Assembly: GCF_024637875.1 (NCBI RefSeq)
Contig: NZ_CP102451.1
Coordinates: 124,001 to 188,000 of the forward strand
Origin: Vagococcus luciliae
Lineage (GTDB): Bacteria > Bacillota > Bacilli > Lactobacillales > Vagococcaceae
Length of the DNA: 64,000 bases
Reading direction: 5' to 3'
In this document: positions 25,007 through 39,843 of the stretch, in pieces
Layout of the letters: the number at the start of each line of letters is the position of its first letter
How positions within the stretch are numbered: position 1 is the first letter of the stretch
Notes under the pieces: generated by a model
Told to the model about the DNA's origin: nothing
What the model saw: only the letters and a program-made list of their open reading frames with translations
The model's database searches: none
Made by a program: the position numbers and the translations under genes

Positions 25007-25285
25007 TTAGATTTCTGTTGGTAAAATATTTTCTACTTCTGAATGTGGTCTTGGAATAACATGAACAGATAATAATTCTCCAACACGTTGAGCTGCTGCT
25101 GCTCCAGCATCTGTTGCTGCTTTAACTGCGCCAACATCACCACGCACCATAACTGTAACAATTCCTCCACCAACTAATTCTTTTCCTACTAAAGATACAT
25201 TAGCTGCTTTAACCATTGCATCAGCAGCCTCTATTGAACCAATTAGTCCTTTTGTTTCGATCATTCCTAAAGCATCAGATTTCAT
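25007..25285 (-). CDS. BMC-H hexameric shell protein (PduA/PduJ-like), operon-end copy
   Basis: 92 residues, a single BMC domain: [20 protein letters not shown] at the start, [20 protein letters not shown] in the centre, and SVHVIPRPH at the end. Such proteins tile the flat facets of the microcompartment as hexamers with a central pore. It is the last gene of the operon. It differs from the first gene of the operon (39559-39843) at only 7 of the first 89 aligned positions, while the DNA differs at many third positions, so the duplication is old. Confidence 0.96.
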
Positions 25286-25313: not shown

Positions 25314-25952
25314 TTAATTTTTTTGAATCACAATAGTTGTGTTAGAACCTACTCCAAGTGCGTTAGCTTCTTCAACGTCAATATGACACTCTAGACCAGC
25401 ATGGTCGTCTACTCGCACGGTGACTTCATTTAGTACGCCACCTCTGTCTCCATCAAAAGCAATTGAGACATTCTCGCCATCTATCACATCAAATCTTGTC
25501 GCATCTTTTGATGGCATATGAATATGTCGTTTAGCAACAATCGCTCCATTGACTATCATTTTAGACCCTTTTGGACCAATCAATGTCACAGATCCTGAAT
25601 CTTGTAATTCTCCCGATAATCTTAATGGTGCTTTAATTCCTAATTTAAAACAATCACTTTTTAATACTTCTACTTGTGTTTGCTTTCTTTCAGGACCTAA
25701 AATTCTAACATTTTCTATCATCCCTTTAGGTCCACAAATCATCACGGTTTCTTTACAAGCATATTGACCAGGTTGAGATAAATCTTTTAATTTCGTCAGC
25801 TCATAACCTTTACCAAATAAACACTCTACGTCTTCTCTTGACAAATGAATGTGTCGATTCGATATCCCTACTGGAATACTCAGATCTGTTTGTTTGGATT
25901 CTTGTGCGATTTTTTTTAATATTTCTATTAAAAGTTCTTCATAATTTTCCAT
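25314..25952 (-). CDS. pduL: PduL-type phosphotransacylase
   Basis: 212 residues. Zinc-site motifs PVGISNRHIHLS near residue 27 and VAKRHIHM near residue 140 are diagnostic of PduL. The N-terminus ELLIEILKKIAQE is an amphipathic helix of the encapsulation-peptide type. It converts acetyl-CoA and phosphate to acetyl-phosphate, recycling CoA inside the shell and conserving energy through acetate kinase. It lies between the CoA-acylating aldehyde dehydrogenase and the last shell gene. Confidence 0.95.
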   Translation of the reverse strand: MENYEELLIEILKKIAQESKQTDLSIPVGISNRHIHLSREDVECLFGKGYELTKLKDLSQPGQYACKETVMICGPKGMIENVRILGPERKQTQVEVLKSDCFKLGIKAPLRLSGELQDSGSVTLIGPKGSKMIVNGAIVAKRHIHMPSKDATRFDVIDGENVSIAFDGDRGGVLNEVTVRVDDHAGLECHIDVEEANALGVGSNTTIVIQKN

Positions 25953-25972: not shown

Positions 25973-27496
25973 TTAATTCATCGTAGATAATATCTGACGA
26001 ACAACTTTCGTTAGTGTCTCTAAGTCATTTTCTGATACATCCGTTACGTTTTTAGATGCCTCACTCATTTGGCAAACTCTTTCTTCCCCAATACAGAAAT
26101 TCTCGCCATCTGGATGGAATGTTTTATCATCCTTTACCAGTGTTCGAACATCTTTCAATCCATACGCTACTTTTTTAATGTTTAATAAATGTTTTGGTCC
26201 AACATTTTCAGAAACTGAACTTCCACCAAATGTTCCACAGCCTAATGTAAATGAAATTGGTAACCCTGTTGAGATACCTGTTCCACCTTGGCTTCCTCCA
26301 GTATTAACTAAAATTCTTGAAGCTGGTTTAGCCGCAAACTTCATCACCATATCTTTATCATTGGTATGAATACTCATCGTATGTCCGATACCATTTTGTA
26401 ATAACTCAATACTTAAATGACAGGCTTCTTCCCAATTATTTACCACATAAAAACCTAATACCGTTGTTAATTTTTCAAATGATAATGGGTAACCTTTTCC
26501 AACACCTTCTTGTCGACCAATCAATACTTTTGTATCGCTTGGTACAGTGATACCTGCTGCTTCTGCAATCACTGTGGCTTCTCGTCCAACAAAACCAGCA
26601 TTCATCACATAACCATTTTTAAATAGTAAAGCACATACTTTTTCTGTTTCTTCTGGTGTCATGAAATAACCACCTTGTGCTTTAAATTCACGAACAACTT
26701 CTTCTTCATTTCCTTTTTCACAGATGATGGATTGTTCTGACGCACAGATAGTTCCATTATCAAATGTTTTAGATGCAATGATTTTTTCCACTGCTGTTTT
26801 AACATTAGCTGTTTTTTCAATATAGGCTGGTGAATTTCCTGCCCCAACACCTAATGCTGGTTTTCCTGAACTATAAGCAGCTTTTACCATACCAGGACCA
26901 CCTGTTGCAATAATTAAACTCACTTCAGGTGCATGTAATAACTCGTTTGTTCCTGCCATAGTTGGTATAGTTGAACAACTAATAATACCATCAGGTGCCC
27001 CTGCTGATACTGCAGCGCGATTTAACATCTCAGCTGTTTTTTTCGTGCAATCTAGAGCTGATGGATGTGGTGAAAAGACAATAGCATTTCTTGATTTAAT
27101 GGCTATCATTGCTTTAAAAATAACTGTAGAAGTAGGGTTAGTTGATGGAATAATCCCTAATACTAATCCCACTGGTTCTGCAACATCAAACGTTCCTTTT
27201 AATTCATCTTCTGAAACAATCCCGATTGTTTTTTCATTCTTTATTTCATCATATAAAAGAGTTGAAGCAGCATGATTCTTATACATCTTATCCATCACTT
27301 TTCCAAATCCTGTTTCTTCAACAGCTCTTTGTGCTAAATTAGATGATTGTTGACTAACCACTTGAACCATTTTTTGCAAGATATGATCGATTTGCTCTTG
27401 TGAAAAAGTCGAAATCTCATTAGCTGCTACTTTACCTTTACGCGCTAAATCTCTTGCTTCTTGTATGGATTTTAAATCTTTATCAAATATTTCCAT
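25973..27496 (-). CDS. cutF: CoA-acylating acetaldehyde dehydrogenase (BMC, CutF-type)
   Basis: 507 residues, EutE/PduP-like. Catalytic Cys251 in FDNGTICASEQS, NAD-binding region GLVLGIIPSTNPTS near 110, and GVGAGNSPAYIEKTA before the active site. The C-terminus (DLETLTKVVRQILSTMN) is an amphipathic helix likely to act as an encapsulation peptide. It oxidises the acetaldehyde released by CutC to acetyl-CoA with NAD+ and CoA. The symbol follows the choline-cluster nomenclature as I recall it. A catalytically broken paralogue lies at 36152. Confidence 0.92.
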   Translation of the reverse strand: MEIFDKDLKSIQEARDLARKGKVAANEISTFSQEQIDHILQKMVQVVSQQSSNLAQRAVEETGFGKVMDKMYKNHAASTLLYDEIKNEKTIGIVSEDELKGTFDVAEPVGLVLGIIPSTNPTSTVIFKAMIAIKSRNAIVFSPHPSALDCTKKTAEMLNRAAVSAGAPDGIISCSTIPTMAGTNELLHAPEVSLIIATGGPGMVKAAYSSGKPALGVGAGNSPAYIEKTANVKTAVEKIIASKTFDNGTICASEQSIICEKGNEEEVVREFKAQGGYFMTPEETEKVCALLFKNGYVMNAGFVGREATVIAEAAGITVPSDTKVLIGRQEGVGKGYPLSFEKLTTVLGFYVVNNWEEACHLSIELLQNGIGHTMSIHTNDKDMVMKFAAKPASRILVNTGGSQGGTGISTGLPISFTLGCGTFGGSSVSENVGPKHLLNIKKVAYGLKDVRTLVKDDKTFHPDGENFCIGEERVCQMSEASKNVTDVSENDLETLTKVVRQILSTMN

Positions 27497-27506
27497 TCAA
27501 ACTCCT

Positions 27507-28100
27507 CTATTCATTGTTTATTAAAAACTCACTTAATGTTTCTACTAATTTTTCTTTACTTGTTTTATAAAGATCTTTTCTAACAATACTAAAATTTGTT
27601 TGATGTTTAGCTATTTTTCTCAAATCAACGACTTTCATTTGAGTCAAATGTTGCATCAATTCTTCTTTATCATGATAGGTTAAATTATTTAATTCTAAAA
27701 AATCTAAATCTAATGTTTTTTTAGTATCTTCAATTATTAAGGAATTCACCGGCTCTTCTTCTAAAGTGACTGTTTCCTTAACTTCAAGTTCTTCTATTAC
27801 ATCAATACTTTTTTCTATAGACTCTGTTTTATCTATAAAAAGACTGGAATCAACTGCTGGTCTTGCTATCACATGTGATGACACAACTGTATCAAAGGAT
27901 AGATAAGAAAGGTTCGATTCAGCAGTACTCACAGCTGTGGTTACTGCCGAAACATCGCCTGTAATTAAAATAGAAGTTAATCCTCCACCTACTTTAGTAA
28001 CACCAAGTAGATGAACGTCAGCTGACTTTAACATGGTATCTGAAGCCGCAATGGTTGCCAAAAGTCCTTTTGTTTCAATCATTCCTAGAGACTCATTCAT
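27507..28100 (-). CDS. BMC-H shell protein with long C-terminal extension (EutK/PduK-like layout)
   Basis: 197 residues. Residues 1-90 are a BMC domain ([44 protein letters not shown]). Residues 95-140 are an acidic linker. The final 50 residues (HLTQMKVVDLRKIAKHQ to SKEKLVETLSEFLINN) look like a Rho_N or SAP-like small helical domain. EutK also carries a helix-turn-helix-like tail, PduK a different one. The tail may bind nucleic acid or organise cargo; this is inference. It overlaps the EutQ-like stop by one base (TGATG). Confidence 0.88.
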   Translation of the reverse strand: MNESLGMIETKGLLATIAASDTMLKSADVHLLGVTKVGGGLTSILITGDVSAVTTAVSTAESNLSYLSFDTVVSSHVIARPAVDSSLFIDKTESIEKSIDVIEELEVKETVTLEEEPVNSLIIEDTKKTLDLDFLELNNLTYHDKEELMQHLTQMKVVDLRKIAKHQTNFSIVRKDLYKTSKEKLVETLSEFLINNE

Positions 28101-28696
28101 CAGCTAACACAACCTTTCATCTTCACTTTAATTACTTTTGTTTGCTTGGTGACATCCCAATCAATTACTTCATCTTTAGGCACATATATGATATCTCCAT
28201 CTGCTAAACATGTTGTACTCTCTTTTAATGTTGCCTTTAATTCTCCCTCAATGATATAAAAGAAAGTATCATCGACTTGTTGTTCAATAAAATGCATTGG
28301 ATTGATAGAGACATATTCTAAACAACCTTCTCCGTTAGATGAGTGCATTAATTCTTGAGCAAAAACCCCTCGTTCTCTTTGTGGAAAACCCTTTAATTGT
28401 ATCGTGTGATGTTTTATTATTTCCACACCACTCAAATCTCTTTCGAGAATAAAAGGAGATAACGCGTTATCCATTATTAAATTTTTTAGTAACGTCACTA
28501 AAGATTCTTTACTCCATTCCTGTGTTATCATTTCGGATACATTTAACTTGCCTTTTTCAACTTTAAACGTCATATCATATTCTTCAGCTAAATCATTTGC
28601 TGAAGGGGTTACAATTGTGTTTTCTGTGATAGGAATGACTCGTTTATTCTCTTCATGGAGTGACTCCACATCACTAGCACAAATCAATTTTTTCAT
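28100..28696 (-). CDS. EutQ-like cupin protein
   Basis: 198 residues. N-terminal half of low complexity with ASDVESLHEENKRVIPI, then a cupin barrel in the last 90 residues (EYVSINPMHFIEQQVDDTFF, YIIEGELKATLKES, LADGDIIYVPKDE). EutQ of Salmonella has acetate kinase activity and helps microcompartment assembly; whether that holds here is untested. It is inside the BMC operon between the EutN vertex gene and the tailed shell gene. Confidence 0.85.
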   Translation of the reverse strand: MKKLICASDVESLHEENKRVIPITENTIVTPSANDLAEEYDMTFKVEKGKLNVSEMITQEWSKESLVTLLKNLIMDNALSPFILERDLSGVEIIKHHTIQLKGFPQRERGVFAQELMHSSNGEGCLEYVSINPMHFIEQQVDDTFFYIIEGELKATLKESTTCLADGDIIYVPKDEVIDWDVTKQTKVIKVKMKGCVS

Positions 28697-28711: not shown

Positions 28712-28975
28712 TTACACTGACTCACAACTTTCATCAATAATACCTATTACAGCAGCATCAATAGGAATAAGATCGTCTTCCAGCATTCGTCTTGCTGCGC
28801 TTCCTGTGGCAATAATGACCCGATCACCAATACCTGCCCCAATCACGTCACAGACAACTATAACCTCACCATCTTTTGTACCACCATTAATTTTGGCAAG
28901 CATTAACTTCAACCCATTCAATTTATCAGATTTTCGTGTTGCCCAAATATTATCTATTAACGTCGCAGTTACCAT
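28712..28975 (-). CDS. eutN: BMC-P pentameric vertex protein (EutN/CcmL)
   Basis: 87 residues, the standard EutN/CcmL/PduN length: MVTATLIDNIWATRK, VIVVCDVIGAGIGDRVIIAT at the centre, GSAARRML. Pentamers cap the twelve vertices of the icosahedral shell. It is the only pentamer gene in the operon. It overlaps the upstream shell gene by 7 bases. Confidence 0.95.
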   Translation of the reverse strand: MVTATLIDNIWATRKSDKLNGLKLMLAKINGGTKDGEVIVVCDVIGAGIGDRVIIATGSAARRMLEDDLIPIDAAVIGIIDESCESV

Positions 28976-29262
28976 TCGTTATTCTTCTCTCTTCGCTTGA
29001 TTTCTTCAATCGCTGCAACTACTGAGGCTGTATCCCCAAAAATTGCTAGTAAAATCATATTTTGTGGACAACTTCCTCGAATATCTTCAATTGTCACACC
29101 AACAGCCTTTTCTGCAACATCTGTGGCACAAATCATCTCTATTAATTTCCCTTGAACTAAGCCAATTGCATCTGGTTTATCTAACTTTTCTTTTGAACTT
29201 TTTCGTCTATTTAAAATAGCCATCGTATTTTCACCGGGTGATTTAATAATTCGACAATCCAT
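28969..29262 (-). CDS. Divergent BMC-domain shell protein (GrpU/CutR-like) with conserved Cys
   Basis: 97 residues. An N-terminal extension (RIIKSPGENTMAILNRR) precedes a short BMC domain (DAIGLVQGKLIEMICATDVAE and ILLAIFGDTASVVAAIEEI). The pore-side segment RGSCPQNM resembles the Cys motif of the glycyl-radical shell protein GrpU, which binds a [4Fe-4S] cluster, and of choline CutR. Metal binding here is inferred from that Cys only. It lies between EutJ-like and EutN genes. Confidence 0.82.
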   Translation of the reverse strand: MDCRIIKSPGENTMAILNRRKSSKEKLDKPDAIGLVQGKLIEMICATDVAEKAVGVTIEDIRGSCPQNMILLAIFGDTASVVAAIEEIKRREKNNEW

Positions 29263-29274
29263 TTTTTAGCCTCC

Positions 29275-30111
29275 TTACATTACTTGATTGGTACAACTTA
29301 AAGCAATTCCTATTGGTGTGACAAACATTGGATTAATTGGTTTAATCGTTTTTATCCCTGTCTCTTTTTCGATAATTGTTTCAATCCCTTTCAAGCAAGC
29401 TGTACCACCAACAAGATAAATATCATTTACCTTATATCCTTTAACTTGATTTGAAATAATTGAAGATATTTTTTGAATCACTGGCTTAACCACGAGTAAT
29501 AATTCATCATGATGTTTTACATTACGTTTATATTTTTCTGCTTGTTCAAAATTAAATTTATAATTTCCAGCAATAACTAATGATAAGTGAGTACCCCCTG
29601 TTGCTTCATCTGCAACTTTCACTACTTTTCCATTTTCTAAAATAGCAATCCCTGTTGTTCCTCCACCAATATCAACCACAGCGCCATCAGTTAATCCTAA
29701 TAACTGATTGGCTGCTGTTGGTTCATCTAATACATTAGTCAACTCAAACCCTGCACTTTGTACGACATTTTTTATAGCCCCACCATCTAAACCATCTGTT
29801 CCAGGTGGTAAAGAGGCTGCTGCATAAACAAGTGTAGTGCCTAATTTTTTTTCTAACTCTTCTTTTAATTCTCTAACAATATCAACGGCCCCTACATAGT
29901 CAACTACCATTCCATCTCTGACAACATTGGCGTATTGATAAGCACCTGCAACAGGTTGATAATCGCTACCTAAAACAACTAAAACAATACAAGCTGTTCC
30001 TAAATCAACTCCTGTATAAAACACGTCAGATTTACTTTTTTTAGGTGTTTTAATAACCGTTTCAAATGTTTGAATAAACTTATTACAGTGTAACGTCATC
30101 TCGTTTGTCAT
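29275..30111 (-). CDS. eutJ: EutJ-like ASKHA-fold protein
   Basis: 278 residues with actin/Hsp70-type nucleotide motifs: YTGVDLGTACIVLVVL (phosphate 1, near 32), GAVVDIGGGTTGIAIL (phosphate 2, near 145) and IYLVGGTACLKGIE (adenosine, near 240). EutJ is presumed to be a chaperone or reactivase of ethanolamine-type microcompartments. In a glycyl-radical, B12-free pathway its client is unclear. The start overlaps the EutT-like gene by 29 bases, behind GGAGG. Confidence 0.9.
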   Translation of the reverse strand: MTNEMTLHCNKFIQTFETVIKTPKKSKSDVFYTGVDLGTACIVLVVLGSDYQPVAGAYQYANVVRDGMVVDYVGAVDIVRELKEELEKKLGTTLVYAAASLPPGTDGLDGGAIKNVVQSAGFELTNVLDEPTAANQLLGLTDGAVVDIGGGTTGIAILENGKVVKVADEATGGTHLSLVIAGNYKFNFEQAEKYKRNVKHHDELLLVVKPVIQKISSIISNQVKGYKVNDIYLVGGTACLKGIETIIEKETGIKTIKPINPMFVTPIGIALSCTNQVM

Positions 30112-30643
30112 CTATACCTCCAACTATCGTTTCCACAATGTCAACTAACTCTGTCACTATCTTCCTAAATCCATGACAAAATTCAGGAAATTGATGAGTC
30201 ATTAAACAAAGTAAACCATAGACTTTTTGTAATTTTACTAGTAGTGGTCCTTCTAAGTACGTCACATATGGGTAAATATCCACAAATAGTGGTAAATTTT
30301 CATCATTCAGATCTTTTGGTTGCTCTAAAGTTTCTCTCATAAATGATTCCAATAACAGAATTCGTTTAGAAACACGATGTTTAATCGTTTCACTCAGAAA
30401 ATAAGCTTCCAATATTTCTGATGAGAGAATCTCTTTATACCCCATCCATTCGGTCAATTGCTTTTCCTTTTGTAACGTCTTTTCTTGTGTCTTTTTATAT
30501 TTATGTGTTGTCACATCAATTTTTCTGTCTAATAAAAACTGCCTTGCTTCTGGTGTTAATTTTTGGTTTTTTTCTAACACAAACTGATTAAATGCCTTTT
30601 TTTTATACATCATTCTTAATTCTTTTTCTGTAAAAAAATACAT
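30083..30643 (-). CDS. EutT-like protein without the metal motif
   Basis: 186 residues. The N-terminus (FFTEKELRMMYKKKAF, then KLTPEARQFLLDRKIDV) matches the start of EutT cobalamin adenosyltransferase. The HX11CCX2C metal motif of EutT is missing: the Cys present are in GLLCLMTHQFPEFCHGF and not paired. No B12 enzyme is encoded in the operon. It is likely a repurposed structural or assembly protein rather than an adenosyltransferase. Starts one base before the stop codon of the upstream alcohol dehydrogenase. Confidence 0.65.
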   Translation of the reverse strand: MYFFTEKELRMMYKKKAFNQFVLEKNQKLTPEARQFLLDRKIDVTTHKYKKTQEKTLQKEKQLTEWMGYKEILSSEILEAYFLSETIKHRVSKRILLLESFMRETLEQPKDLNDENLPLFVDIYPYVTYLEGPLLVKLQKVYGLLCLMTHQFPEFCHGFRKIVTELVDIVETIVGGIDDKRDDVTL

Positions 30644-31786
30644 TTAATACCCACCTCTCAACAACTTACGATAAATCATTTCTAAGTCTGCTTGCTGAGG
30701 TTTTCGAGGATTTGTCAACGTGCATTTATCTTGCATTGCTTTTTCAGCCATTTCTGGAATAGCTTCTAGAAATGCTTGGTGATCAATTCCAAATTCTTCA
30801 ATCGATTGAGGTAAATCTAATTGTTTCATCAAACGTTTTAATTTAGAAATAAACGCATAAACAGTTGATTTAGCCGTTCCTGATTGTATACCTAGAACAC
30901 CTGCAATACGTCGATATTTTTCTAAATTGTCTGTTTCTCTATCATTTTCTAATTCCGCATTATAAGAGATAACATGAGGAAGTAATAATGCATTTACTCT
31001 TCCATGAGGTAAATGGAAACGTCCTCCTAGCGCATGTGATAAGCTATGACAAATCCCCAACGATGCCTCGTTAAACGCTATTCCAGCTAAACAAGAAGCG
31101 TTATGAATACTTTCTCTAATATCTATGTTTTCACCATCGTTATAAGCTGTTACTAGTTTATCCCAGATAATCGTGATTGCTTTTTCACCATTTGCATCTG
31201 TAAAATCATTAGCTTTTGTTGAAGCTAATGCCTCAATACAATGTGTGAAAACATCTATCCCAGTATCTGCTGTAATATTTTTAGGAACAGTTAAAACCAA
31301 TTTAGGATCTAATATTGCCACATCTGGAATCATTTTCTTATCAACCAATGCATATTTGCTATCAGATATTGGATCTGAAATAACTGAAAATGATGTCACT
31401 TCACTGCCTGTTCCACTTGTAGTTGGAATGCAAATAAGAGAAATAGAGATATCTTGATGCACTATTTGATAAATATAACGAATTGCCTTTGCCGCATCCA
31501 TTGCCGATCCACCACCAAGAGCGATGATGCTATCTGGTTCAACCGATAAAGCAGAAACAAGTCCTTTTGTTACAATCTCAATGGTTGGATCAGGTGTGAT
31601 CTCAGAAAAAATAGTACATTCAATCTCACTTTTAGCTAATAAATTCACCAACTCATCTGCTCTTCCACATTGAACCATGTATGGATCACAAACTAACAAC
31701 ACTTTTTTTAATGTTAATTGACTTAATTCTTCTAAAGAATCTTTTCCTGAAAAAATTTCAGTCGCCATTTGAAATTCATTTAACAA
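30644..31786 (-). CDS. cutO: Iron-containing alcohol dehydrogenase (CutO/PduQ/EutG-type)
   Basis: 380 residues, group III Fe-ADH. NAD site ALGGGSAMDAAKAIRYI near residue 90, TTSGTGSEVTSFS near 135, and metal His in HSLSHALGGRFHLPHGRVNALL near 245-265. It reduces acetaldehyde to ethanol and regenerates NAD+ for the acylating dehydrogenase inside the compartment. Start is TTG with GAGGAGG seven bases upstream; the next in-frame ATG is codon 7. The symbol is from choline-cluster usage. Confidence 0.9.
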   Translation of the reverse strand: MLNEFQMATEIFSGKDSLEELSQLTLKKVLLVCDPYMVQCGRADELVNLLAKSEIECTIFSEITPDPTIEIVTKGLVSALSVEPDSIIALGGGSAMDAAKAIRYIYQIVHQDISISLICIPTTSGTGSEVTSFSVISDPISDSKYALVDKKMIPDVAILDPKLVLTVPKNITADTGIDVFTHCIEALASTKANDFTDANGEKAITIIWDKLVTAYNDGENIDIRESIHNASCLAGIAFNEASLGICHSLSHALGGRFHLPHGRVNALLLPHVISYNAELENDRETDNLEKYRRIAGVLGIQSGTAKSTVYAFISKLKRLMKQLDLPQSIEEFGIDHQAFLEAIPEMAEKAMQDKCTLTNPRKPQQADLEMIYRKLLRGGY

Positions 31787-31815: not shown

Positions 31816-32253
31816 TTACCACTTCAAAGTATTTATTAAATACTCTACGTCTGTTTCTTTTTCTAAATCTACTTGATACCACGTTTTAGATAATCCTATC
31901 TTTTCAATAACATTTAGTGCTTGTTTTTGATCTTTTTCCGTATATGATTTTCCATGACTCGTTATCATTCCCACAACTGGTACACGAAAAATTTTTGAAA
32001 AATTTGGTGGATAACTTACTTTAGAGGACTTAATAGGGACTAAAAATAACGCACAACTAGCTGTTTGTTGTAATGCAATAATATGTTTATGCATCCATGG
32101 ACTCTCTAAATAAGTATCAGGAACAATCATTGTTTTTTCTGTATATAATACATTTGCTACTTTTCTTATTTCTGTTTGAGATTGCTCAATATATTGAGCA
32201 ATCTCCCTTTTTCCACTTTGTTTAGGTCCAATGATCAGCACACGTTTTTTCAT
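31816..32253 (-). CDS. EutP/PduV-like protein with degenerate GTPase motifs
   Basis: 145 residues, the length of EutP. Walker A reads GPKQSGKRE, with Arg in place of the Ser/Thr that binds Mg-phosphate. The switch II motif DTPGEY of EutP is DTYLES, and the NKxD/TKxD base-recognition motif is replaced (MITSHGK). It is therefore probably a pseudo-GTPase. In Pdu systems PduV affects compartment movement through its contact with PduU, whose homologue is the next gene upstream with a 4-base overlap. Confidence 0.75.
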   Translation of the reverse strand: MKKRVLIIGPKQSGKREIAQYIEQSQTEIRKVANVLYTEKTMIVPDTYLESPWMHKHIIALQQTASCALFLVPIKSSKVSYPPNFSKIFRVPVVGMITSHGKSYTEKDQKQALNVIEKIGLSKTWYQVDLEKETDVEYLINTLKW

Positions 32254-32603
32254 GTACGTGTCACCTTAACAACCTCGTAATTCAATGTCTGTTTTAACAC
32301 ATTGACAACTGTTTGAAGAGATTCTTCCACACTTTGAACATCTCCTGAAATCAATACAGAACCTGTAAATCGATCAAGAAAACCAACCTGTACATCAGCA
32401 CTTTTCCCTGCAATATCCGCGGCAATAATAGCTGTTTCAAATGGAGAAATGGTTAAAATACCGATTGCACCTTCATTTTCAATACCTAGAGAGTCATAAA
32501 TTTCTTCAATTGGAGAAGCAATAACATGAGCTAACGTTACTTGCTTTCCTGGAACTGACTCTTCTATTACTCGTTTAACAGTATCATCTAACAGTTTAAC
32601 CAC
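32250..32603 (-). CDS. EutS/PduU-type circularly permuted BMC shell protein
   Basis: 117 residues. ESVPGKQVTLAHVIASP, IGILTISPFETAIIAADIA and VGFLDRFTGSVLISGDV are the hallmarks of EutS/PduU, in which the BMC fold is circularly permuted and an N-terminal beta-barrel plugs the pore. The only plausible start is GTG 32603, which overlaps its ribosome binding site (AGAGGTGG), so initiation may be inefficient. Between cutD and the EutP-like gene. Confidence 0.92.
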   Translation of the reverse strand: MVKLLDDTVKRVIEESVPGKQVTLAHVIASPIEEIYDSLGIENEGAIGILTISPFETAIIAADIAGKSADVQVGFLDRFTGSVLISGDVQSVEESLQTVVNVLKQTLNYEVVKVTRT

Positions 32604-32618
32604 CTCTTTTTCACTATT

Positions 32619-33569
32619 TTAATGTCGCACCACTTTTACAAAGAAATCATATTCTTTAATCCAACTTTCAATCTGATCTAACTCTTCATCAGATAATGAT
32701 GGGTCACCATCTACTGGATATTCCATACCTAATTGCCCATATTTATTCACACCCAATTTATGATAAGGCAGTAAATCAATCCCTTTAAAATTAGGGTAAT
32801 CTTTATAAGGCAATAAGAAATTAACAATTTGTTCTATTTCTGGTTTGCTATCATTAATCATTTTTAACATTGGCATTCTGATGTGAACATCGTGTCCATC
32901 TTCTAGTAGTTGTTTTAGATTCTCTAAAATCCGTTCATTACTAATCCCAGTTAATTGATTATGTTTCACTGGATCCATATGTTTTAAATCATATAAGAAT
33001 AAATCCACATACTCAGCGATTGCCATCAAGCGATCCATTCGTGAGTGACCACATGTTTCAATAGCTGTGTTAATACCATCTGCTTTACATGCTTGCAATA
33101 AGGCAAGAGCTGCTTCAGGTTGTGCGGTGCATTCACCACCACTTAGTGTCACCCCTCCACCAGATTGTTCATAAAACTCATCATCTTCATGAATAATCTC
33201 CATCACTTCTGAAATAGATCGTATTTCTCCTGTAATGTTTAAAGCTGACATTGGGCAAACAGCCACACATTCTTGACATCCTGTACAAGCAATATCACGA
33301 TTCACTTGATGATTACCTTTTTCATCAATGTAATGAATTCCAACTGGGCAAGCATCCACACAAGCATGGCAATCACTGCAAATACTTTCTTTATACATGA
33401 CTTGAAATTTTCGTTCTAACCCCTCCGGATTAGCACACCATTGGCATCTTAAGGGACAGCCTTTAAAAAATACAATCGTCCGGATACCAGGTCCATCATA
33501 AAGACTATATTTTTGGATATTAAAAACCATCACCTGTCTTTCGACTGAATCTATCAATTGATTCACCAC
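32619..33569 (-). CDS. cutD: Choline TMA-lyase activating enzyme (radical SAM)
   Basis: 316 residues. Radical SAM CX3CX2C in FKGCPLRCQWCANPEG near residue 32, then two ferredoxin-type clusters, CSDCHACVDACPVG and CTGCQECVAVCPMS, as in CutD and other glycyl-radical activases. SGGGVTLSGGECTAQP is the SAM-binding motif. It installs the glycyl radical on Gly821 of CutC. Start is uncertain: GTG 33569 has a weak ribosome site, and ATG at codon 14 (MVFNIQKYS) is an alternative. It follows cutC by 15 bases. Confidence 0.95.
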   Translation of the reverse strand: MVNQLIDSVERQVMVFNIQKYSLYDGPGIRTIVFFKGCPLRCQWCANPEGLERKFQVMYKESICSDCHACVDACPVGIHYIDEKGNHQVNRDIACTGCQECVAVCPMSALNITGEIRSISEVMEIIHEDDEFYEQSGGGVTLSGGECTAQPEAALALLQACKADGINTAIETCGHSRMDRLMAIAEYVDLFLYDLKHMDPVKHNQLTGISNERILENLKQLLEDGHDVHIRMPMLKMINDSKPEIEQIVNFLLPYKDYPNFKGIDLLPYHKLGVNKYGQLGMEYPVDGDPSLSDEELDQIESWIKEYDFFVKVVRH

Positions 33570-33584
33570 TTTTCTAACTTATTG

Positions 33585-36125
33585 CTAAAATTTTGTTATC
33601 ATTGTACGGCTGATAATCTCATCTTGAACGTCTTGACATAATTCAACAAAGAAAGCACTATATCCTGCAACACGAACAATCAAATCACGATATTGTTCCG
33701 GATGTTTTTGCGCATCTAAGAGTGTTTCGTTATCAAGGTAGTTAAATTGCATTTCACCATTTCCTAGTACACTAGCTGTTTTAAGTAATGTAATTAAGCT
33801 GTTTTCTCCCTCTTCTGTATCCAACATACCTGACATAATTTTAAAGTTATGAACCATTCCCATATTCATCGTATCATTAGCCATTTTAGAAACAGATTTA
33901 ATAATCGCTGTAGGGCCTTTAAAATCTGCACCTTGTGTTGGACTGATACCATCTGACAACGGAATCCATGCTTTACGACCATTAGCAGATGCTCCTGTCA
34001 ATTGTCCTAAAGGTGTATTGTTTGAAATAGATAACGTTCCATGACATAATTCTGAGAATAACGTTTTGTGTTTACGATGTTCTTTTTCTGTAAAGTGAAT
34101 AAGATCTGCTGCAATTAAATCTGCATAGTCATCATCATTTCCATATTTTGGTGCATTTAAGCAATCTGTTCTGACTTGTTCATAGCCAACAAAGTCTGCT
34201 TTTAATGCTGTATTAAGTTCTTCAAGTGTGTATTTGTTCTCTTCAAAGACTAATTTTTTAATAGCTGCCATTGAATCTGTATACGTTGCCAATCCTGACC
34301 AAACCACACCAGGACCAAAGTTATACATCGCTCCACCACTTGATACATCTTTTCCATTTTCCATACAACCTTCATACATGATTGACATTAATGGTTTTGG
34401 TGCTAAATCTCGGTGAACACGTTGAGTGATAACCGTTGCGATGGATGATAATTCTGTCACATATTTGATTTGCTCTTTAACAGCTTCTTCAAATTGTTCA
34501 TATGTTTTATATTGTGATACATCACCTAAATCTGGACAAACTTGTTTGCCATACCATAAAGGAACCCCTCTGTTTAACACTAATTCGATACAAATTGGCC
34601 ATTGTGTGTAGGCTGTAGATGTCCATTGATAAAGTCTTCCTGATTTTTGTGGTTCAACACAACCCATTAAACAATAATCACGTGCATCTTCAATCGACAC
34701 ACCTTTAGCTAACATCATCTTGATATGTGTGTCATCAAAATGACAGGCAGGGAATCCAATTCCAGCACGAACAACATCCACAATTTTTTTCAAGTATTCA
34801 CGTGGGGAACGATTATGAATTCGACAAGCTAATGATGGTTGGTACACTTTTACATGTCTCACAGCATCCATTAATAAATAAGTTAAATCATTGGTTGCGT
34901 CATAGCCTTCACGAGTTACTCCGCCCACGCACATATTGACAAATGGTTGATAACCAGCAAAGAATTTAGAACCACCTTCACTTGTTATCCACATCATTTC
35001 TGACATTTTGATTAACATACAACCCGCTAATTCAAATGCTTCAAACTCACTCATCCGACCAGTTTCGATATCATTCTTAAAGAATGGATACATGTATTGG
35101 TCGACACGACCAATTGACATACCTGTTTGATTTTCTTCAACAACAAGTAAAGATTCAATTGTCCAAACTGCTTGAATCGCTTCCCAAAATGTTTCAGGTT
35201 TATTAGCTGGTACTTTAGCATTAATTTCTGAAATCTTTTGTAATTCTTTTTTACGTTGTGGATTAGTCTCTTTTGCTGCAAGTTGAGCGGCATATTCTGA
35301 CATACGACGAGCGTAAATCATCACACCTTCAGCTGTTTCGATAATTGATTTGTAGAAATAAATTTTTTCAATATCTTCAGGATTGTCATAGCTTAATTTA
35401 TCTAATTGTTCTTGTGCTTCTTTTTGGACATCTAGCATGCCTTTTTTCATTAAAATGACATCATAACCAGGATTCGAATCTCCCCCACCATTTACTGCAT
35501 GGTAAGAACAATCTGATACAAATGATTCACCAGAAATTTCCCAAACGCCAGCTTCTCTAAATTGATCTTCACAGTATTCATCAATTGATTTACCTTTCCA
35601 AAATGGGAATAATTCTTCTCTCATGATACGTTTGTCTTCATCAGAAATATAAAATGGATCCTGTGGTCTACTAGAAATCGTATCAATTTCTTCTTCCATC
35701 CAACGCCATGCAATATCTGGTGAAAAAGATCCAGCTCTTGGCGCGCCATTTGGAGCCCCAACAATTAATTCATTCTCTTGAATAACTAAAGGTGCTGTTT
35801 CACAACTTTTCTTAAATGATTTTGATCGTAAAATATTTTTAGGCATTCCAGGATTTTCTCTGGCTATTTCTGTCATCACCCGTGCTTTATGAGTCGTGAT
35901 AGTTGGTTTTTGTTTTAAGTAATTTTCTTTCAAAGCTTCCAATCTAGGTGTTATACCATTTGGCACGCCTGATTGATTACCGCTTACAAAAGTTAAATCA
36001 ACTGAATCTGTTTTTGTAATATCATCTGATACTGAAGCAAACATTTTCATCAATGCTTGTTGTTCTTCTGTACTTAACTCTTTTGTCGCTTCAGCTAATT
36101 TAGCTGAGAATTCTTTAATATCCAT
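33585..36125 (-). CDS. cutC: Choline trimethylamine-lyase (glycyl radical enzyme)
   Basis: 846 residues, identical in length to the short Desulfovibrio CutC. All active-site residues I know from that enzyme appear at the same numbers: Tyr208, Asp216, Phe395, Cys489 and Glu491 in GCVEP, Thr502, Tyr506, and the radical Gly821 in RVAGYSAFF. Glycerol, diol and pyruvate-formate enzymes differ at several of these. It cleaves choline to trimethylamine and acetaldehyde. The N-terminal 30 residues ([19 protein letters not shown]) could be an amphipathic encapsulation helix. ATG behind GAGG. Confidence 0.97.
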
Positions 36126-36151: not shown

Positions 36152-37573
36152 TTAAGCTAAAATTTTTCGTAAAATCTCTTCTAACATTTTTTCATGAGAT
36201 TCTTCATCAACATTATTAACGTGTTCAATACACTGCGTTGAATGACTAATTTCTCTAATATACGTTAAATCTGATGCTGTTATATTTTTCGCGCTTATTC
36301 CTTTACCAGTTGTTAAACCACCTAACAGACATGAAGTTGCTAGCGTTGAGTTTATCCCCATACTAGCTAAAGAAGACGGTGAATTAACTATCATTCTTCC
36401 TACCGGTTTTTTTAAGGCAAATTGATTTAATACTTCTAAATTATTTGAATGTATCGCTATTGTATGACCATTATTTTTTTCCTTTAATAACCGAATTGAT
36501 TTTTCACACGCATGCATCCAATCAGGTTCTAAATAAAAAGCAATGACTGGGCATTTCATTTCATTAACAAAAGGATCTAGTTCATGCACGTAATGTTTTT
36601 CCGATACTAAAACACTGGTATTATCTTCAATAGAAAAATGAGCCAATTCAGCTAGTTCATAAGCATTTTTTCCAACACATATAGGATTAATGCCATTATC
36701 TTTAGGCTGTAACAAATTAAGTAGCTGATGCTCTTCTTCCTCAGATAAAAAGTGCGCCCCTTTTTGTTGTAGCTGTTGTTTCACTTCACTAGCGATACTT
36801 TGTTCAACTATTAAATATTGTTCTGATCCTGGCAACATCCCATTATCTAATGAGCGACTGTCTATCACTGACTGTACGGCATCTGACACATTAGCAGTGT
36901 GCTCGATAAAAGCTGGTGTCCCTCCTGTTCCTCCATAAATTATCGGCTTTTGAGTATTGGTTGTGTTGTTTATTTTTCCAGCCGAAATAATCATTGAAGT
37001 ATTTTTATGTGTCACTATTTCTAATATGCCACTTTCAGAAATACTCTCAAGACATGTGATACAACCTACTGGTAACCCATATTTTTCACAAATATTTTTC
37101 ACACTATTTACGACATGAATTGTTGTATGATAGGCTTCATTATCAGGGATAACAATGATACTATTACCTGATTTGATGCCGATAACGATACTATATAATG
37201 TGTTTAAAATGACATTATTTTCTGATGGAAAGACTACTATCACACCTAAAGGCACGCCCACTTTTAAAATATTCCCCGCAGAATCTTTTAAAAGCTCTCC
37301 GATACACTGTTGATTAGATAATTCTTTTTCTAGCTGTGATAAGAAATGTGTTAATAACCATTCTTTGTCTTTTATAGAACCACGTTTTGTTTCATTTACT
37401 TCCATATCTATAAAGTGTGCTAATTCCATTGTGATATTTTCTAATAATTGATTAATTATTTTATCTAAGTAACTTTGCTTATAGTCTTTAACTAAAAATT
37501 GAGCATTTCTTGCGTTTTCAACAAGAATTCTGGCTTCTTGGATTGATAACAGATCTTTATCTGCTCTACTCAT
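36152..37573 (-). CDS. Aldehyde dehydrogenase-like pseudoenzyme of the BMC operon
   Basis: 473 residues aligning along its length with the acylating aldehyde dehydrogenase at 25973, but the catalytic Cys is lost: FDNGTICASEQ there is SLDNGMLPGSEQ here, with Pro248 at the Cys position. The nucleotide-loop and GVGAGNSP regions are also altered (IYGGTGGTP). The C-terminus ESHEKMLEEILRKILA still looks like an encapsulation helix. It is thus a probable inactive, encapsulated scaffold or regulatory subunit. Located between the shell genes and cutC. Confidence 0.88.
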   Translation of the reverse strand: MSRADKDLLSIQEARILVENARNAQFLVKDYKQSYLDKIINQLLENITMELAHFIDMEVNETKRGSIKDKEWLLTHFLSQLEKELSNQQCIGELLKDSAGNILKVGVPLGVIVVFPSENNVILNTLYSIVIGIKSGNSIIVIPDNEAYHTTIHVVNSVKNICEKYGLPVGCITCLESISESGILEIVTHKNTSMIISAGKINNTTNTQKPIIYGGTGGTPAFIEHTANVSDAVQSVIDSRSLDNGMLPGSEQYLIVEQSIASEVKQQLQQKGAHFLSEEEEHQLLNLLQPKDNGINPICVGKNAYELAELAHFSIEDNTSVLVSEKHYVHELDPFVNEMKCPVIAFYLEPDWMHACEKSIRLLKEKNNGHTIAIHSNNLEVLNQFALKKPVGRMIVNSPSSLASMGINSTLATSCLLGGLTTGKGISAKNITASDLTYIREISHSTQCIEHVNNVDEESHEKMLEEILRKILA

Positions 37574-37900
37574 CTAAACAGCAGCTCCCTCCTCTTGAAG
37601 CGGTTCATCAAGCAATTGATAATACTGAATGATTTTATTTAAATCCATATGTGGTCCAGCAATTACTACTGAGCTATAAATTTCTGCTCCTAGTTTTTCA
37701 ACTGCTGATGTTCCAGCTTCTACTGCTGCTTTACATGCAGCAACGTCACCTTTTACAATGACTGAAATATACCCTGATGCAACATTTTCATAGCCGACTA
37801 ACTCAACATCTGCTGCTTTGCACATTGCATCGCATGCTTCTAGCACAAATACCAAACCGAATGTTTCGATTGCGCCGATTGCTTCAAAACTTTGCATACG
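37574..37900 (-). CDS. BMC-H shell protein (108 aa)
   Basis: About 108 residues from MQSFEAIGAIETFG. AGGAGGG lies eight bases before this ATG (37900); the open frame extends further into the preceding gene. Single BMC domain (VLEACDAMCKAADVELVGYE, GYISVIVKGDVAACKAAVEA), with a short C-terminal tail ending in EEGAAV. It carries Cys in the helix after the first strand, unlike the PduA-like copies. Adjacent to another BMC-H gene with a 13-base gap. Confidence 0.92.
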   Translation of the reverse strand, partial: RMQSFEAIGAIETFGLVFVLEACDAMCKAADVELVGYENVASGYISVIVKGDVAACKAAVEAGTSAVEKLGAEIYSSVVIAGPHMDLNKIIQYYQLLDEPLQEEGAAV

Positions 37901-37913
37901 CATACCCTCCTCT

Positions 37914-38210
37914 TTATCCATCAATACTGTGAACCGATACAATTTTTCCGATTTCTTCAATAGGTCTTGGCATGACGTTATGCGCTGTTAATGTCCCGAT
38001 TTCTTTTGCCGCTCTTGCTCCAGCTTCTACCGCACTTTCAACCGCTGCCACATCACCTTTCACCATAATGGTAACTAATGTCGATCCTATATTTTCATAT
38101 GAAATTAATTCAACGTTTGCTGCCTTTAGCATTTCATCACATGCTTTTAATGCAGGTACTAATCCGATTGTTTCGACTAAACCTAATGCTTCTTGACCTC
38201 TGTATACCAA
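37914..38210 (-). CDS. BMC-H shell protein (98 aa)
   Basis: About 98 residues. Two in-frame TTG codons exist; the second (38210) is seven bases from AAGGGGG and is preferred, the first (38216) is too close. BMC domain: EALGLVETIGLVPALKACDEM, STLVTIMVKGDVAAVESAVEAG, HNVMPRP. It is paired with the next shell gene, and the two may form hexamers with different pores. Confidence 0.92.
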   Translation of the reverse strand: MVYRGQEALGLVETIGLVPALKACDEMLKAANVELISYENIGSTLVTIMVKGDVAAVESAVEAGARAAKEIGTLTAHNVMPRPIEEIGKIVSVHSIDG

Positions 38211-38256
38211 GTTCAATCCCCCTTATTATTCAATTCACAAGTTGTTAGAAAAAAGT

Positions 38257-38535
38257 TTATCTATAAGCCTTATCAACATATTTATCCACTGTTTTTCTTC
38301 CTTCTTCGGTAATGATGTAGTACATTAATAACTCATCATTTTCATCTAGATTATAGCTATCTAACTCAACTAAACCGTTGGCTTCAAGCGCCATAAGATG
38401 TTCTGAAAATAATCTTTGGTTAAATTGTTTTTCTTCACCATATTGTGATTTCAGTTGTACCATCACTTCTTGGACATTATATTTTTTTCTGCCATACATT
38501 TGATTTAAAACAGCTGTTCTTGCAGGTAAAAGCAT
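38257..38535 (-). CDS. Small winged-helix protein embedded in the BMC operon
   Basis: About 92 residues from MLLPARTAVLNQMYG; AAAGGGGG lies upstream and the ATG follows the stop of the EamA gene by one base. The pattern of helices, HLMALEANGLVELDSYNLDE and a wing-like YYIITEEGRKTVDKYV, resembles PadR/MarR-type winged-helix proteins. I do not recognise the exact family. A transcriptional role in the operon is plausible; a protein-protein role is equally possible. Confidence 0.6.
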   Translation of the reverse strand: MLLPARTAVLNQMYGRKKYNVQEVMVQLKSQYGEEKQFNQRLFSEHLMALEANGLVELDSYNLDENDELLMYYIITEEGRKTVDKYVDKAYR

Positions 38536-38536
38536 A

Positions 38537-39541
38537 TTACGCTTCCCCCTTTCTGAATAAATCAAATGGGTTCATTGTTACTAGAATGGCTCCCATAACA
38601 ATCAATATTGATCCAATAATCATAGTTGGTGTAATTGTGTCTCCTAAAAATAAAACACTGAATATAACACCCCAAAAAGCATAAGTAACATTTAACGACA
38701 TTCCAACGGCTGTTCCAACCATTGCATTTGCTTTATACCATGTTAAAAATGAAATTCCTGCACTTAGTCCTGAGAAAATCAACCAAATAACTGGTGTAAC
38801 AGCTGATAATGTATTAAATAATAAGTCTACACCACCAATAACCGGTAAAATAAAAATAATTACAACAAGTCCTGAAACTAATTCACGTAAATTAACCGCT
38901 ACATCTGTATCAATCATGGCACCACCAAAACTTGAAAACACACCTTCTAATCCCCAACATACTGCTGCAACTAATGCACAAATGATACCTAGTGTGAAGT
39001 TTGGTGCGCCTTCTGGAGCGACCATGTTAATTGTAATAGCACCTAATACACAAATAATCATGCCAATAACAATTCTTAATGTTGGTTTTTGTTTTAAAAA
39101 GATCCATGAGAACAAAGCACCAAACAAACTACAAGTAGCTGAAATTGGAATAGCATATGCACCCGCTAAAGCTAGTCCAACAAGATATGCACCATTTGCA
39201 ATAGGCCCTCCTAATAAAAATCCAACAACCAACATTTTTCCGGGTTTGGTTTTAACCATACGAATAATTTCTTTAAGTCTGCCTTCTTTAGCGTTATAAA
39301 ATAATAAAAATATTCCAGCAAAAAAATCATTTAATCCCGAACAAACGAAAGGAGCTGCTAAAATACCAACTGCACTTGTTAAAGGATCATACCCACTGGC
39401 TACTACCACAAGTGTGGAATAAATAGCATAAGTAATACCAGATATTAGTCCATTAGTAATCCCTTTCATTCTAAATTTTTTATTTACTAAGCTCATCTTT
39501 GTATCTGCGGATGAACATACCATGTTTTTTTGAGTTTCCAT
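38537..39541 (-). CDS. EamA/DMT-family transporter of the choline BMC operon
   Basis: 334 residues, ten membrane segments in two EamA repeats (GLISGITYAIYSTLVVVAS onward, then ALVAAVCWGLEGVFSSFGG). The short hydrophilic N-terminus is unusual. It is the second gene of the operon, between two shell genes, so import of choline or export of trimethylamine or another product is likely. Choline clusters in other bacteria often carry small SMR-type transporters; this 10-TM type would be an alternative. Substrate is inferred. Confidence 0.82.
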   Translation of the reverse strand: METQKNMVCSSADTKMSLVNKKFRMKGITNGLISGITYAIYSTLVVVASGYDPLTSAVGILAAPFVCSGLNDFFAGIFLLFYNAKEGRLKEIIRMVKTKPGKMLVVGFLLGGPIANGAYLVGLALAGAYAIPISATCSLFGALFSWIFLKQKPTLRIVIGMIICVLGAITINMVAPEGAPNFTLGIICALVAAVCWGLEGVFSSFGGAMIDTDVAVNLRELVSGLVVIIFILPVIGGVDLLFNTLSAVTPVIWLIFSGLSAGISFLTWYKANAMVGTAVGMSLNVTYAFWGVIFSVLFLGDTITPTMIIGSILIVMGAILVTMNPFDLFRKGEA

Positions 39542-39558: not shown

Positions 39559-39843
39559 TTAGTTGTTGTTTCTTAATGGTAAAATATTTTCCACTTCACC
39601 ATGTGGTCTAGGGATTACATGTACAGAAAGAAGTTCTCCTACACGCTCTGCAGCACTTGCTCCTGCATCTGTTGCTGCTTTAACTGCTCCTACGTCACCT
39701 CTTACCATTACTGTTACAATACCGCCTCCAACAAATTCACGACCGACTAATGACACGTTTGCTGCCTTCACCATAGCATCTGCTGCCTCGATTGAACCTA
39801 TTAATCCTTTTGTTTCCACCATTCCTAATGCATCGTACTTCAT
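39559..39843 (-). CDS. BMC-H hexameric shell protein (PduA/PduJ-like), first gene of operon
   Basis: 94 residues: [56 protein letters not shown]. Near twin of the last gene of the operon (25007-25285). As first gene behind the promoter it should be the most abundant shell protein. TAGGAGG lies nine bases before the ATG. Confidence 0.96.

Follow-up and report, generated by a model that had tools for sequence, protein, structure and literature searches.

The window analysed here, a 64,000-nucleotide stretch of the Vagococcus luciliae genome, carries a choline compartment cluster whose genes listed below all lie on the minus strand. At its head stands a gene for a BMC-domain shell protein (39559–39843, PF00936), and the BMC-H gene at its tail (25007–25285, PF00936) is closely similar to it. 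Next comes 38257–38565, which encodes a 102-residue protein that neither Pfam nor NCBIfam matches at E 0.001; the gene adjoins a DMT-type transporter, holds its place upstream of the shell genes in numerous loci, and might encode a PadR protein. Two further BMC-domain shell genes (37914–38216 and 37574–37960, both PF00936) lead to the aldehyde dehydrogenase (ALDH)-like gene at 36152–37573, the subject of this study, which is followed by cutC, encoding the 846-residue choline trimethylamine-lyase (33585–36125; TIGR04394, 1641.8 bits, cut-off 1050), and cutD, encoding the CutC activating enzyme (32619–33569; TIGR04395, 510.2 bits, cut-off 360). Downstream of cutD lie another shell gene (32250–32603, PF00936), a gene for an EutP/PduV-like protein (31816–32253; TIGR02528, 49.9 bits, below the curated cut-off of 138.35), an alcohol dehydrogenase (ADH)-like gene (30644–31786) over which no NCBIfam model exceeds its cut-off, and 30083–30643, whose 186-residue product likewise matches no Pfam or NCBIfam model at E 0.001; a relative of this product occupies the same slot in genomes G382, G495 and G533, which makes it an unnamed protein of GRM1 clusters. 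The remainder comprises genes for EutJ (29275–30111; NF011660, 398.7 bits, cut-off 182), a divergent BMC-domain protein that might be GrpU (28969–29262; PF00936, 25 bits, cut-off 24.5), an EutN/CcmL vertex protein (28712–28975, PF03319), an EutQ-like cupin protein (28100–28696), a BMC-domain protein with a C-terminal extension (27507–28100), the active acetylating aldehyde dehydrogenase P0002 (25973–27496; 507 residues, Cys251; TIGR02518, 729.5 bits, cut-off 620.1) and a PduL-type phosphotransacylase (25314–25952; NF011652, 267.7 bits, cut-off 209).

The first-pass annotation had placed the second ALDH-like gene correctly at 36152–37573 and omitted its strand, which is minus. Its frame is intact, as had been claimed: it is open for 473 residues from an ATG at 37573, with AGGAGG 14 nt upstream, and it begins directly behind a BMC-domain gene and ends 26 nt before cutC. 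In alignment to P0002, with which the protein (P0001) shares 29% identity, Pro248 falls in the column of the catalytic Cys251, so that the substitution noticed at first pass is upheld; its codon is CCA, at 36830–36832 as computed from the ATG. The same holds for the altered nucleotide-binding loops, where ATGGPGMV of the active enzyme has become SAGK---I and GVGAGNSP has become YGGTGGTP, and the SPHP motif reads IPDN. Against solved acetylating enzymes, LDNGMLPGSEQ stands opposite FDNGTICASEQ of the Listeria protein 3k9d. The nearest named relative, the protein of Vagococcus bubulae L016, is 89% identical over its whole length, and that of G012 is 88% identical; both were sequenced separately and carry the same proline, which rules out a sequencing slip as its source.

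Neither the catalytic Cys nor the NAD loop of the TIGR02518 acetylating acetaldehyde dehydrogenases is retained in the protein, which scores 322.7 bits on that model, under the curated cut-off of 620.1. The AlphaFold2 monomer model has an ALDH fold (mean pLDDT 89), and its top PDB matches are acetylating ALDHs, the best being 5j78 (TM 0.88/0.92). With EUT2-type acetylating acetaldehyde dehydrogenases (TIGR02518; 5j78, 3k9d) the protein thus has the fold, the base His and the adjacent Thr in common, whereas the catalytic Cys, the NAD loop and the GVGxGN loop are changed. In the same model, an amphipathic, encapsulation-type C-terminal helix is predicted at residues 458–472, behind a low-confidence linker (about residues 458–473 as a feature, 36155–36202 on the minus strand), in agreement with the helix proposed at first pass.

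A compartment locus with cutC, cutD and a second AldDH in which Cys is replaced by Pro corresponds to what has been described for GRM1. The consulted part of Axen et al. 2014 (PMC4207490) reports that, wherever a GRM1 choline locus has two AldDHs, one of the pair carries Ser or Pro in place of the Cys, suggests scaffolding or regulation for the inactive copy, and omits the defunct copies from the AldDH tree; in Fig. 5 of Sutter et al. 2021 (part of PMC8217296), the second copy of GRM1A and GRM1B is marked as putatively inactive. Since these studies report the inactive second copy, the central observation of the first-pass annotation was already known. The window protein belongs to this group by locus type, position beside the choline lyase and replacement of Cys (Ser or Pro in the group), with no difference in kind. 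What is new here is the single origin of the sampled copies, the variants with Thr or Ala, the loci without the gene, the tie to compartments and the evidence that the gene belongs to the CutF line. Within the text (figures aside) of the consulted parts of PMC4207490, PMC8217296, PMC6325248 and PMC6971018 we found no statement that the dead copies are CutF orthologs, and the literature searched yielded neither an account of the origin of the dead enzyme nor a test of its role.

To tabulate homologs beside cutC at the Cys position, a check proposed at first pass, genome contigs were scanned with an alignment of 11 relatives. The best 80 of 159 relatives were kept and joined by four further sequences (L001, which is the window gene itself, L003, L007 and L011). 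Cys occurs at the catalytic column in none of these 84 sequences, the window's copy included; the residue is Ser in 54, Pro in 26, Thr in 2 and Ala in 2. Because Cys is absent from all 84, its loss is not a matter of chance. Replacement of Cys by Ser or Ala has been reported to abolish activity in related enzymes (part of PMC5311937; C269A in the consulted part of PMC4762007).

Functional positions, named from Cphy1178 (part of PMC4762007) and the R. palustris enzyme (part of PMC5311937), were tabulated for the 84 dead and 8 active rows. Among the dead rows (the best 80 of 159 relatives plus the four), the base His is kept in 82/84, and the residue after it is Thr or Ser in all 84. Of the 26 Pro-type rows of this set, 22 have the oxyanion Asn, whereas 57 of the 58 Ser-, Thr- or Ala-type rows have Ser there; Asn is also kept in 9 of 10 basal dead copies. 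The cofactor His shows the reverse distribution (57/58 Ser-, Thr- or Ala-type rows versus 8/26 of the Pro type). A joint alignment, in which near-copies were retained, sets 119 dead rows beside 44 with Cys. All of the latter have Gly200 in the NAD loop, whereas none of the dead rows does, 88 of them having Val instead; rows were added with --keeplength, by which insertions can drop out. With Cys absent, the NAD loop changed and the gene under purifying selection (see below), the sequence evidence supports well the earlier proposal of a pseudoenzyme.

The C-terminal tail varies. When the 80 tails of the named loci (best 80 of 159) were compared with shuffled versions, 58 supported an amphipathic helix at p ≤ 0.05, among them 7 of 21 Lactobacillales tails; the window's own tail lies outside this set, and that of its nearest relative, L016, gives p = 0.115. 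In L135, L136 and L076 the dead protein stops around residue 450 and has no C-terminal helix. Such helices bind between shell tiles according to the consulted part of PMC11157265.

To place the dead copies, we used a tree of 53 rows, hand-chosen across groups and rooted on AdhE, in which GRM2 is sampled by three gammaproteobacterial CutFs (E. coli, Klebsiella, a partial sequence, and Proteus); six long-branch rows were left out at one stage of the comparison. The 24 dead rows form one clade (support 100/100) whose sisters are the three GRM2 CutF rows (100/99), and the GRM1 active enzymes form a separate clade (100/100). When the dead and GRM1-active rows are forced together, a constraint named after earlier trees had been viewed, the log-likelihood falls by 95 units (p-AU 0.00027). 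This rejects a duplication of the active enzyme within the operon, so that the view of the gene as a paralog born inside its own operon finds no support.

Other lines of evidence are consistent with this placement. A search with E. coli CutF through 398 genomes from the phylum of the window gave, among its ten best matches, nine dead copies with Ser or Ala (57–60% identity); the tenth was left unread, and rank 11 is the Cys enzyme of G031, also at 57%. At loop position 217, 114/119 dead rows and all three CutFs have Gly, whereas the remaining 41 of the 44 Cys rows have Val; the loop reads YGGTGG in the window protein, SGGPGN in the CutFs and GVG in those 41 rows. Gene order points the same way. 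The E. coli GRM2 locus runs BMC (three genes), CutF, EutN, ADH, CutC, CutD, and the GRM1 loci run BMC, BMC, dead copy, cutC, with cutC directly after the dead copy in the window. Eight loci found by starting from cutC have an ADH between the dead copy and cutC, like GRM2, and one of these, L156, branches near the base of the dead clade. The gene order of L159 was misread, its ALDH ORF overlapping the cutC ORF.

GRM2 CutF (Klebsiella, E. coli and Proteus; part of PMC6971018) thus has in common with the dead copies a sister-clade relationship, a Gly-Gly loop, a putative C-terminal tail like an encapsulation peptide, and the slot between BMC-H genes and ADH or cutC. It differs in keeping Cys, the oxyanion Asn and the NAD loop, and its CutC has an extra N-terminal domain; in the E. 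coli record, no ALDH other than CutF is annotated within 12 kb of cutC. Taken together, the comparisons suggest that the dead line descends from the CutF line and is kin to CutF by descent, without being a CutF enzyme, its Cys being gone. Catalysis has apparently passed to another ALDH, with the CutF line staying under purifying selection. Since the active ALDHs of the Desulfovibrio/Desulfobacterales loci L064, L074 and L092 sit on another branch than the Bacillota GRM1 enzymes, the active partner would have been recruited more than once.

The history of the catalytic site was followed on a quick tree of 65 rows (51 dead, dereplicated to below 80% identity, and 14 with Cys) with the Cys column left out. 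All Cys rows fall on one side of a branch with SH-aLRT 100, and the label Pro requires five changes (at least four of these forced by supported branches), Ala three and Thr one. At the codon level, the 80 named loci (best 80 of 159) have Ser in 53, always as TCN, Pro as CCN in 24, Thr as ACN in 2 and Ala as GCN in 1. TCN is one first-position step from the codons for Pro, Ala and Thr, and TGY for Cys is two steps from CCN. A single change from Cys to Ser, followed by changes from Ser to Pro, Ala and Thr, is the simplest reading; because one basal row (L143) has Ala, the priority of Ser is likely, not certain. Given that the Ser codons TCN sit one step from those for Pro, the window's Pro probably arose by way of Ser.

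Selection on the gene was assessed in three Vagococcus pairs (Nei-Gojobori), which gave dN/dS of 0.110, 0.105 and 0.179, compared with 0.041–0.068 for the active enzyme and 0.017–0.048 for cutC. In a neutral simulation at 0.25 changes per site, none of 1000 runs remained without a stop. By these sequence-based measures the gene is under purifying selection, and open frames, a dN/dS of about 0.1 and the neutral simulation rule out a pseudogene for the family. In Clostridium ljungdahlii, CLJU_RS19625, assigned to the same place by position only, is raised by choline by log2 7.2, as is the lyase by 7.9 (part of PMC12016505).

As to which choline loci carry the gene, cutC lies downstream of the dead copy in 80/80 named loci (the best 80 of 159 relatives), with an ADH between them in two (L044 and L068), and at least one shell-type ORF is present in all 80. 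Because this first scan had started from the dead copies, the survey was repeated starting at cutC. Hits were obtained in 6/398 class genomes, 14/398 phylum genomes (over cut-off), 9/113 genomes in the class of G637 and 5/297 (over cut-off) in the phylum of a Desulfovibrio genome, sets that overlap one another and the first survey; 31 cutC-like places were compared, one of them (G1079) under the CutC cut-off. An ALDH-like gene lies upstream at 24 of the 31 (Ser 14, Pro 8, Ala 2, Cys 0) and is absent at seven; one of the 14 Ser copies (L158 in G873, an assembly 72% complete) is broken into pieces. Shell ORFs are present at 27 of the 31 places, among them all 24 with the dead gene, which therefore occurs at 24/27 places with shell genes and at 0/4 without, where L157 and L164 have less than 1.6 kb upstream to the contig end and L163 less than 1 kb downstream. 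On this distribution the dead gene goes with compartments.

At L162, L163, L164 and L157, where the stretches compared contain no shell-type genes, the cutC-like ORFs are shorter, at 809–826 codons. A CutD-like gene adjoins those of L162 and L164, whereas L157 and L163 each represent an additional cutC-like copy, their genomes (G878 and G824) holding a dead ALDH elsewhere.

Three genomes (G382, G495 and G533) have complete GRM1 clusters with the active enzyme and no dead gene among the genome's matches, which rules out the presence of the gene in every GRM1 locus. The dead gene accompanies compartments, yet is not kept by every GRM1 cluster. The clusters concerned are L138 with L182 in G382, L141 with L181 in G495 and L142 with L183 in G533; cutC directly follows two BMC genes in G495 and G533, and in G382 an ADH-like sequence in two overlapping ORFs lies between. 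In Enterococcus raffinosus, cutC is found at 84.5–84.6% identity on plasmids of 0.98–1.19 Mb in five records (H1–H5), and in the one cluster read (H2, L188) the dead copy has Pro and the active enzyme Cys.

A scaffolding or regulatory role, as put forward at first pass, is plausible for the dead protein, and several alternatives to a structural function deserve weighing. The protein could be a regulatory subunit that mixes into tetramers with the active ALDH and tunes its activity or stability, as an inactive ALDH2 variant does in human tetramers (part of PMC10211241), and the common fold, with acetylating ALDHs as best PDB matches (TM 0.88/0.92), would permit this. It is, however, only 29% identical to the active enzyme and not its sister, and in G382, G495 and G533 the active enzyme occurs without it. 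Further, because dead copies are found alongside active enzymes of two lineages (that of Bacillota GRM1 and that of L064, L074 and L092), a single conserved interface is less likely, and we consider this role unlikely overall. We are equally doubtful of a sensor or carrier, in which the Ser type would bind CoA, NAD(H) or an acyl ligand without turnover and hold or report it. In its favor is the conservation of the cleft, measured as entropy over 34 positions picked by motif, not from a structure. Mean cleft entropy (all positions in parentheses) is 0.25 (1.14) in 14 active rows and 0.50 (1.00) in 41 dereplicated Ser-type rows, for which 0 of 2000 random sets were as low; GGxGN, Glu and His-Thr are invariant or nearly so in the Ser type, and SPHP is kept in most. 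In the 20 rows of the window's clade the cleft stands at 1.23 against 1.61, with 24/2000 random sets as low, the cofactor His is retained in just 8 of the 26 Pro-type rows (84-row set, best 80 of 159 plus four), and Gly200 is lost in both types. From these patterns, the Ser type may still hold a ligand and the window's clade probably no longer does, so the sensor reading could be true of the Ser type but not of the window. Since the window's clade probably holds no ligand, a role common to both is more likely to be structural.

It is very unlikely that the protein is still an enzyme, acting by another residue or in another reaction. The base His (82/84) and the Thr or Ser after it (84/84; best 80 of 159 plus four), as well as the oxyanion Asn in 9/10 basal copies, would fit such an activity, but the site itself has changed repeatedly between Pro, Ala, Ser and Thr, the Asn is Ser in 57/58 Ser-, Thr- or Ala-type rows of the same set, and the NAD loop is altered. 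Hardly credible for the family as a whole, though it could hold for single lineages, is a dying gene on its way to loss. The gene does evolve faster than its neighbors, is absent from three complete loci and is in pieces in 1 of 24 copies of the cutC-first survey (L158, in the 72% complete assembly G873); against this, the dN/dS of about 0.1 and the 0/1000 stop-free neutral runs largely refute decay.

Structural cross-linking is our preferred, though hypothetical, function. Recombinant GRM2 CutF has been reported to cross-link CutC (Kalnins et al. 2020, part of PMC6971018), an effect that, according to the same part of that paper, needed an N-terminal CutC domain of about 335 residues. In the GRM1 line, the catalytic Cys would have been lost once, most simply to Ser (a TCN codon), together with Gly200 of the NAD loop, and Ser would have given way to Pro, Ala or Thr in later lineages, an order that we infer. 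The catalytic job would have been taken by a different aldehyde dehydrogenase (25973–27496 in the window). The dead protein, for its part, may keep the ALDH tetramer and a CutF-type cross-linking contact with CutC itself, perhaps bind other cargo, and use its C-terminal helices to dock to shell tiles; in combination, the tetramer, the contact with CutC and the docking would make it a multivalent cross-linker of the compartment core. With moderate confidence, then, we read the GRM1 second AldDH as a pseudoenzyme of the CutF line in which another ALDH performs catalysis and the body serves as such a cross-linker, the gene probably being kept to hold the compartment core together.

Several findings count against a cross-linker. 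The dead gene is absent from the complete GRM1 loci G382, G495 and G533, the tail helix is not universal (only 7/21 Lactobacillales tails pass), and the base His, kept in 82/84 sequences (best 80 of 159 plus four), would be needless for a pure scaffold, although Gln replaces it in three of five Desulfobacterota rows of the Pro type. In the named loci, CutC ORFs that are complete from stop to stop span 846–892 codons in 76 cases and 937 in one other (G1094), and E. coli CutC has 1128 residues; because GRM1 CutC is without the GRM2 N-terminal domain, the GRM1 contact cannot be identical to that of GRM2.

ALDH16A1 is an animal ALDH pseudoenzyme, and we know of no animal ALDH pseudoenzyme with a microcompartment. 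Like the dead protein, the inactive ALDH2 variant combines an ALDH fold with lost activity (part of PMC10211241).

Combined, the two systems allow a wider reading, which we offer tentatively and rate slightly short of probable. The GRM1 dead enzyme would be the decayed counterpart of the live GRM2 CutF, its catalysis handed to a recruited ALDH that came from at least two lineages and its CutF body serving as core cross-linker, and GRM2 would be the mirror image, with a live CutF and a degenerate extra domain on CutC. Each system would then have one CutC–CutF partner that is a non-catalytic copy kept for assembly. The CutF link yields a concrete hypothesis, the cross-linking of CutC, and the family provides natural controls for it in its Ser-type and Pro-type copies, the loci without the gene and the cutC genes outside compartments. 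Tracing the dead enzyme to an active CutF line separates two jobs of these proteins, of which the chemistry is replaceable and something else apparently is not.
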